This document shows positions 14,040-14,162 of a stretch of 64,000 nucleotides of DNA, piece by piece. The notes below the pieces were generated by a model. That model worked only from the letters and a program-made list of their open reading frames with translations, was not told the origin of the DNA and did not search any database. How positions within the stretch are numbered: the first letter of the stretch is position 1; every line of letters starts with the position of its first letter. This stretch comes from Novosphingobium sp. ERN07. Lineage in GTDB: Bacteria; Pseudomonadota; Alphaproteobacteria; Sphingomonadales; Sphingomonadaceae. Location: NCBI RefSeq assembly GCF_012641335.1, contig NZ_JABAID010000002.1, forward strand, positions 1 through 64,000, read 5' to 3'. The position numbers and the translations under genes were made by a program.

Positions 14040-14162
14040 GAGTCTGTCGGAACTGCACAGACTCCATATATCGATCTGGCCTCGTTCCGTTCTTGCCTTA
14101 CGTGTTGCGCGACTCGCCTGAATCTGGCGAGTCGCGGCTTGACGCGGGACTTGCGATGACTC
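14040..14162. promoter_or_regulatory. GANTC cluster and hairpin upstream of ccrM
   Basis: Six GANTC methylation sites lie at 14040, 14060, 14111, 14120, 14129 and 14158 (first bases). Three of them sit in one perfect inverted repeat with 11-bp arms, CGCGACTCGCC (14108-14118) and GGCGAGTCGCG (14126-14136), and a 7-base loop that itself carries GAATC. The next gene encodes the enzyme expected to methylate these sites, so methylation feedback on its own promoter is likely, as known for Caulobacter ccrM. No CtrA box was seen. Confidence 0.75.

Follow-up and report, generated by a model that had tools for sequence, protein, structure and literature searches.

A conserved GANTC array with NrdR-like palindromes suggests a composite methylation-responsive promoter ahead of ccrM in Novosphingobium

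Results

A GANTC array between rnhB and a ccrM-like gene

The array lies in the window (the whole stretch of DNA analysed, 64,000 nt from Novosphingobium sp. ERN07), in an intergenic region with rnhB (RNase HII) on one side and a ccrM-like gene on the other. The latter occupies 14200-15372 on the forward strand, and its 390-aa product matches the profile NF050803 over its full length with 617.7 bits, below the model cut-off of 830; this CcrM-like match supports the initial annotation, which had read the gene as a GANTC methyltransferase. The genome encodes gcrA and nrdR besides ccrM. A motif count placed GANTC at 14040, 14060, 14111, 14120, 14129 and 14158, bearing out the claim of six sites within 14040-14162, and at two more places, 14079 and 14148, the sequence is one substitution away from the motif.

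GANTC is depleted overall in the 64-kb window, with 86 occurrences versus 255 expected from dinucleotide shuffles. Our density sample, composed of the window plus 80 stretches and covering about 35% of the 4.69 Mb genome (76 contigs), contains 2,551 GANTC in 1,640,126 bp, or one per 643 bp. The excess claimed for the array therefore stands, with better odds than first stated, as the chance rate assumed for it, one site per 250 bp or fewer, was generous to chance. Six GANTC per 123 bp were found only in the ccrM stretch in this 1.64 Mb sample, five being reached at three other stretches, so that no equal density turned up in the part of the genome counted. The array sites are also biased in their central base, which is G or C in 5 of 6 versus 461 of the 2,551 GANTC in the sample. 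Two of the three sites within the inverted repeat described below are linked by its symmetry, and the six are therefore not all independent.

Several less dense clusters were seen in the same sample. Overlapping clusters of four and five GANTC per 123 bp lie at L243:8863-9085 (C1 ~408863), between a Kinase-PPPase gene and hemE (URO-D), together with GTGGACA/CCACAGG motifs; in Caulobacter the origin Cori adjoins hemE, and these clusters possibly mark the chromosome origin. Four GANTC per 123 bp occur within ~200 bp upstream of ctrA (L234:9439, C1 ~229439; the gene matches NF045991 with 426.9 bits, cut-off 350), and the same number upstream of a plasmid RepA gene (PF04796) at L154:13500 (C3). 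A further cluster, of five per 123 bp, precedes an M23 peptidase gene at L240:13569 (C1 ~353569).

Conservation of the array among relatives

We compared the regions upstream of ccrM from 70 Novosphingobium genomes (L001, L003-L031 and L112-L151, out of 191 matching; L002 was omitted as a paralogue) and from a further set of 80 named loci (L032-L111). L032-L035 duplicate L003, L112, L131 and L136; the counts over 70 genus loci and 66 other loci of sphingomonad type leave out duplicates and L032-L040, and five loci (L105, L108-L111) were set apart as an outgroup. Two of the 66 others, L099 and L107, carry no label finer than Alphaproteobacteria. The named group of 75 used when box pairs were compared with coding DNA does include L032-L040, eight of which are labelled Novosphingobium (L039 is not). 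A class-wide sample took 40 of 75 matching genomes, and exclusion of L286, from the same family, leaves 39 in the class count.

At least six GANTC sites lie in the ~225 bp upstream of ccrM in 67 of the 70 genus loci and in 36 of the 66 others, so that the sites proved to be conserved in related ccrM promoters. The medians are 8 and 6, respectively, the six of our window being below the genus median, and the order and spacing of the array are kept across relatives. The initial annotation compared the array with a two-site arrangement in Caulobacter, which its density and palindrome would exceed. Over 110 loci, the upstream 220 bp carry one GANTC per 40 bp, as compared with one per 925 bp in the ccrM coding DNA. 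An outer upstream GAGTC is present in 4 of 7 aligned relatives and absent in the window, and GCCTC at 14079-14083 (forward strand) is one base off the GACTC that all 7 carry. Beside this position is a conserved block, GTTCCGTTCT (the GTTCCGTTC block; 14084-14093, forward strand), with the consensus GACTCgTTtcGTTCt in relatives. A search of a plasmid collection with the ccrM region returned 28 similar records, including one Sphingomonas plasmid with 73.7% identity over 76% of the query.

A predicted core promoter with GANTC at fixed offsets

A scan of 13900-14300 found no consensus sigma-70 promoter. The likely −35 element is TTGACG (14139-14144, forward strand), predicted from the conserved position of TTGAC; its distance to the beginning of the right palindrome described below is 78 bp, and TTGAC occurs 40-125 bp past that palindrome in 69/70 genus loci. 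The core layout consists of TTGAC followed by GANTC at offsets of 7-10 and 18-20. In the window the second of these is site 6 (GACTC, 14158-14162, forward strand), at offset 19, which would place it at about −16, between the predicted −35 and −10. The first is degraded: GACTT at 14148-14152 (forward strand, offset 9) aligns with GACTC or GAGTC in 7/7 relatives, at the same place or one base off (offset 7-9). With a 17-bp spacer, a putative weak −10, CAAACG, would lie at 14162-14167 on the same strand.

Both core GANTC sites are present at the fixed offsets in 60/70 genus loci, 35/66 other loci and 2/5 outgroup loci, and 19 of the 39 loci from other alphaproteobacterial families also have them; the layout was met in only 1 of 2,953 chunks of 550 bp from the own genome, scanned on one strand. 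If TTGAC is the −35, these sites would lie near −27 and −16 (one being degraded in the window), and the predicted core then has the geometry of CcrM/GcrA-controlled promoters. The weak −10 would fit a need for an activator such as GcrA.

Further downstream, at offset 35 from TTGAC, is the 9-mer TTGTCCACA (14174-14182, forward strand), which resembles what we take to be the DnaA-box consensus. Such a 9-mer occurs at this offset in 10 of 69 genus loci, the window's included, and a looser DnaA-box pattern follows TTGAC in 14/69 genus and 24/74 named loci.

A symmetric GANTC dyad specific to Novosphingobium

Sites 3-5 (14111, 14120 and 14129) form a dyad, CGACTCG-N11-CGAGTCG, at 14110-14134, with a central GAATC. 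In this species it is embedded in a perfect 11-bp inverted repeat, CGCGACTCGCC (14108-14118) and GGCGAGTCGCG (14126-14136), whose very centre is GAATC; the repeat and its three sites, noted in the initial annotation, are thus real. A dyad of GANTC and GAGTC just before TTGAC was found in 63/70 genus loci and in none of the 66 others. Its arms are spaced by 18 bp in 47 genus loci, GACTC being the left one, and by 20 bp in 15. Allowing up to 3 mismatches, the dyad has no second copy in the entire own genome.

We analysed pairing in the 46 distinct 18-bp dyads, leaving out 16 of other spacing. Both GANTC arms are invariant, the N included, and their flanks nearly so (CGACTCG/CGAGTCG). At the inner positions, pairing is kept in 34 dyads at i2, 32 at i3 and 13 at i4. 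Together i2 and i3 pair in 66 of 92 cells, a number reached by 5 of 2,000 shuffles (relatedness inflates such tests), and two-sided changes are seen, to T-A at i2 in 4 dyads and to G-C at i3 in 6. Joint pairing over i2-i4 is reached by 248/2,000 shuffles. Pairing also exceeds shuffles (8/2,000) at the innermost two positions, which are part of the central GANTC; GAATC or GATTC occupies the middle of 25/46 dyads, and all ten arm pairs are perfect in only 16/46. The symmetry hence extends about two bases inward beyond the GANTC arms. This upholds the part of the earlier 'methylation hairpin' reading that concerns a symmetric DNA element, through the i2 and i3 pairing, but not the hairpin as such, since i4 and the joint i2-i4 pairing are at shuffle level. 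We take the dyad to be a symmetric DNA element that would be bound by a protein.

The motif TTAACCA, which we take to be a CtrA-like site, occurs in the dyad's interval in 29/66 other loci and 6/70 genus loci. Of 145 loci, counted with duplicates, the dyad alone is present in 67, TTAACCA alone in 35, both in 2 and neither in 41. In the window this half-site, the only one sought, is absent from the 130 bp after the right palindrome. We infer that in Novosphingobium the dyad may have replaced the CtrA-like site.

The dyad is only one module of the array: the first two sites fall in a pair of palindromes, and the last in the class-wide predicted core promoter.

A pair of palindromes overlapping the first two GANTC sites

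An 8-bp repeat, GAGTCTGT...ACAGACTC, which the initial annotation had overlooked, links the first two GANTC sites (14040-14064). Each belongs to a 16-bp NrdR-like palindrome, or box. The left box, CCACTACATCTTGAGT (14028-14043), has 8/8 core positions and its inner end overlaps site 1 (GAGTC, 14040-14044); the right box, ACTCCATATATCGATC (14061-14076), has 7/8, with a degenerate outer half, and its inner end overlaps site 2 (GACTC, 14060-14064). The boxes were scored on the core C.C.A.AT.T.G.G, with 8 positions per box and 16 per pair, which replaced a 16-position NrdR consensus that was noisy at nrd loci. This core was derived from the ccrM loci, and its fit there is partly circular; it was checked on E. 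coli oligonucleotides (see below).

The window pair matches 15/16 core positions, with a left-to-right distance of 33 bp, that is, a 17-bp spacer; many relatives have a 16-bp spacer, and the starts of the two boxes are 32 or 33 bp apart in 69/70 genus loci. With only the best pair retained per ccrM locus, a score of at least 14/16 was reached in 67/70 genus and 46/66 other loci (3/70 and 20/66 lacked it), as compared with 0/110 coding segments of 900 bp. In the 1.64 Mb sample, pairs of this score with a spacing of 30-34 occur at five places including ccrM, and the reversed control gave one. In the class-wide sample only 3 of 40 loci reach 14, and a box pair common to the class was therefore rejected. 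Judged by these scores, the box pair looks like a sphingomonad feature.

The inner ends coincide with GANTC, mostly as GAGTC/GACTC, in 54/70 genus loci for the left box and 61/70 for the right. Of the 16 genus loci in which the left box has no GANTC, 13 retain all eight core positions (for example CCACCAGATATGGTGT) and 2 retain seven; at L125 an eight-position box was missed by the pair scan, having no partner at 31-34 bp. The core is kept where the left GANTC is lost, and the palindrome, not just the methylation site, therefore seems to be selected.

The spacing between the right box, counted from its first base, and TTGAC is also constrained. Over 136 distinct loci, with kinship ignored, it is 77-80 bp in 109, 87-90 bp in 17 and 66-68 bp in 4, with other distances in 4 and none found in 2. 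These steps of about 10 bp (about 68, 78 and 88) suggest that box pair and promoter lie on the same face of the helix.

Do the palindromes form an NrdR operator?

NrdR binds pairs with spacers of 14-17 bp in the case of four proteins, and of 14-18 bp in Listeria, according to the available text of PMC12051234; the 17-bp spacer of the window is within this range. On our core, the E. coli NrdR oligonucleotides of PMC12176259 score 13, 13, 14 and 14, as compared with 8 for the negative ribX; the nrdAB_0,1 oligonucleotide, which scores 14, seems from the available part of that source to be bound weakly. Only three places in the 1.64 Mb have a pair at 15/16: ccrM, L252:17756, situated between nrdA and nrdB but separated from nrdB downstream by about 1.5 kb and another ORF, and L268:6156, which has no clear target.

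At the ribonucleotide reductase (RNR) genes the picture is mixed. Among the 29 nrd loci scanned (L193 and L223 were excluded), 6 have a pair of at least 14 and 23 do not. A palindrome of another type, resembling GCACTATAGGTAGTGG, GCACTAT(A/G)GGT(A/T)GTGG, is present at 13/17 genus nrd loci (e.g. upstream of nrdA at L192), and in some of these a second half resembling CCTCTAAACCTAGTTT follows 32 bp on; the GCACTATAGGTAGTGG type may be the main NrdR site at genus nrd loci. A genome-wide search with one half-site pattern yielded no regulon, giving 82 matches at up to 2 mismatches versus 103 for the reversed control. The NrdA of this genome (677 aa, L252:15069-17099) has no ATP-cone in Pfam at E 0.001, so that RNR may depend chiefly on NrdR for dATP sensing here. 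Four GANTC per 123 bp also lie upstream of nrdA (L252:14772, C1 ~594772), a clustering that the RNR locus of this genome has in common with ccrM.

The pair in the window precedes ccrM, with no RNR operon there, and would therefore work like an NrdR operator rather than be a member of that class. The boxes lie ~60-110 bp upstream of the predicted −35, which is far for a classical repressor. Given core, spacing and scores, we lean slightly towards NrdR as the protein that would recognize the pair.

Discussion

We propose that the stretch is a composite methylation-responsive ccrM promoter, made of the core, the dyad and the NrdR-like box pair, and as an explanation of the whole we consider this probable. 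Replication would leave the array hemi-methylated and would permit ccrM transcription, presumably with GcrA; CcrM would then remethylate the array, changing promoter output. The box pair would be occupied by a regulator, most likely dATP-loaded NrdR, if by a modest measure of confidence, which would tune ccrM and hinder methylation of the GANTC sites within the boxes. With a GANTC in each box, protein binding and methylation would be expected to interfere with each other. The array could plausibly act as the switch that the initial annotation suggested, responding to hemi- or unmethylated DNA.

Of four rival explanations, chance or compositional clustering of the sites is next to negligible: the available text of PMC8116508 describes intergenic GANTC enrichment in most alphaproteobacterial chromosomes, but the density of the array is unique in 1.64 Mb and its positions are conserved across families. 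An RNA hairpin, attenuator or terminator in the leader, or an extruded DNA hairpin, could draw on the perfect 11-bp stem of this species, on an RNA fold z-score of −2.6 for 14025-14200 and on the i2 and i3 pairing with its two-sided changes; we nevertheless find it very improbable, since pairing at i4, and over i2-i4 jointly, does not exceed shuffles, a symmetric protein site accounts for the symmetry equally well, the spacing of the dyad differs in 15 genus loci, and the dyad lies upstream of the likely −35, so that the core promoter would not transcribe it. A scan of 13900-14300 found no terminator, and no Rfam family reached its threshold.

Two other alternatives concern what reads the sites. 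Ordinary CcrM autoregulation, in which GcrA and/or CcrM alone would read the array, NrdR having no part and the palindromes being inverted GANTC pairs plus context, is consistent with the presence of gcrA and with the G/C-centred sites and CGACTC context, similar to the ftsZ/mipZ elements described in the available part of PMC3708114. We regard it as unlikely, however, as the left-box palindrome persists in nearly all loci that have lost its GANTC and seems to be what is read. The recognition of the pair by some regulator other than NrdR is a more serious possibility, though still short of probable: the genus nrd loci match the box core inconsistently and the half-site search yielded no regulon, but core, 16-bp length, pairing and spacing are all consistent with NrdR, and two of the three best-scoring pairs lie at ccrM and between nrdA and nrdB.

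The composite promoter with NrdR-like boxes may tie methylation, DNA copying and nucleotide supply together at one promoter. A stronger version, which we offer tentatively and hold to be rather doubtful, is a dNTP-gated switch: NrdR, as a dATP/ATP sensor, and CcrM would compete for the GANTC of the boxes, dNTP supply, fork passage and methylation would be read at a single promoter, and the self-methylated dyad would replace CtrA control in Novosphingobium. To our knowledge, little is known of CcrM timing outside Caulobacter. The locus is of interest for a promoter grammar of exact spacing that is conserved across an order, and because dNTP sensing and DNA methylation may be directly linked there. 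Sphingomonas melonis appears, from the available text of PMC8116508, to be among the species that grow unharmed by loss of the CtrA system.

In Caulobacter, methylation state alters the activity of the ftsZ, mipZ and ctrA P1 promoters (PMC3708114, PMC3973325, PMC4287350, as far as their accessible text goes), and ccrM itself is 'most probably' controlled by methylation (PMC3973325, accessible text). Methylation control of ccrM was thus already considered probable there. A literature search, which covered few subscription papers, found no paper with a promoter layout like that of the ccrM array, nor, among titles and the beginnings of abstracts, one linking NrdR with ccrM or DNA methylation. 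Brilli et al. 2010 counted GANTC before cell-cycle genes and predicted that ccrM is preceded by DnaA or CtrA motifs according to the lineage; the available text (PMC2877005) describes no array layout, box pair or dyad, and its supplementary GANTC tables may include sphingomonad ccrM.

The locus resembles Caulobacter CcrM/GcrA promoters in having GANTC near the predicted −16 and, in relatives, −27, the zone of methylation response (PMC3708114, PMC4287350, in the text available). The ftsZ/mipZ promoters carry GANTC as CGACTC, lying in ftsZ between −35 and −10 (PMC3708114, same part). Unlike these promoters, the present one has six sites (genus median 8) in a fixed order, TTAACCA is absent from the 130 bp after the right box, and the NrdR-like boxes overlap GANTC. 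With the NrdR operators of RNR genes it shares two 16-bp palindromes and a spacer within the bound range (PMC12051234, PMC12176259, as available), but the pair stands ahead of ccrM and well upstream of the likely −35, and its inner half-sites are mostly GAGT(C), not GTGT. Finally, CcrM is kept off GANTC by MucR and, in a synthetic promoter, by CtrA boxes, as described in the accessible part of PMC5172544; the promoter proposed here would be alike in having a DNA-binding protein overlap GANTC, and would differ in that the presumed protein is another one and acts at the promoter of the methyltransferase itself.
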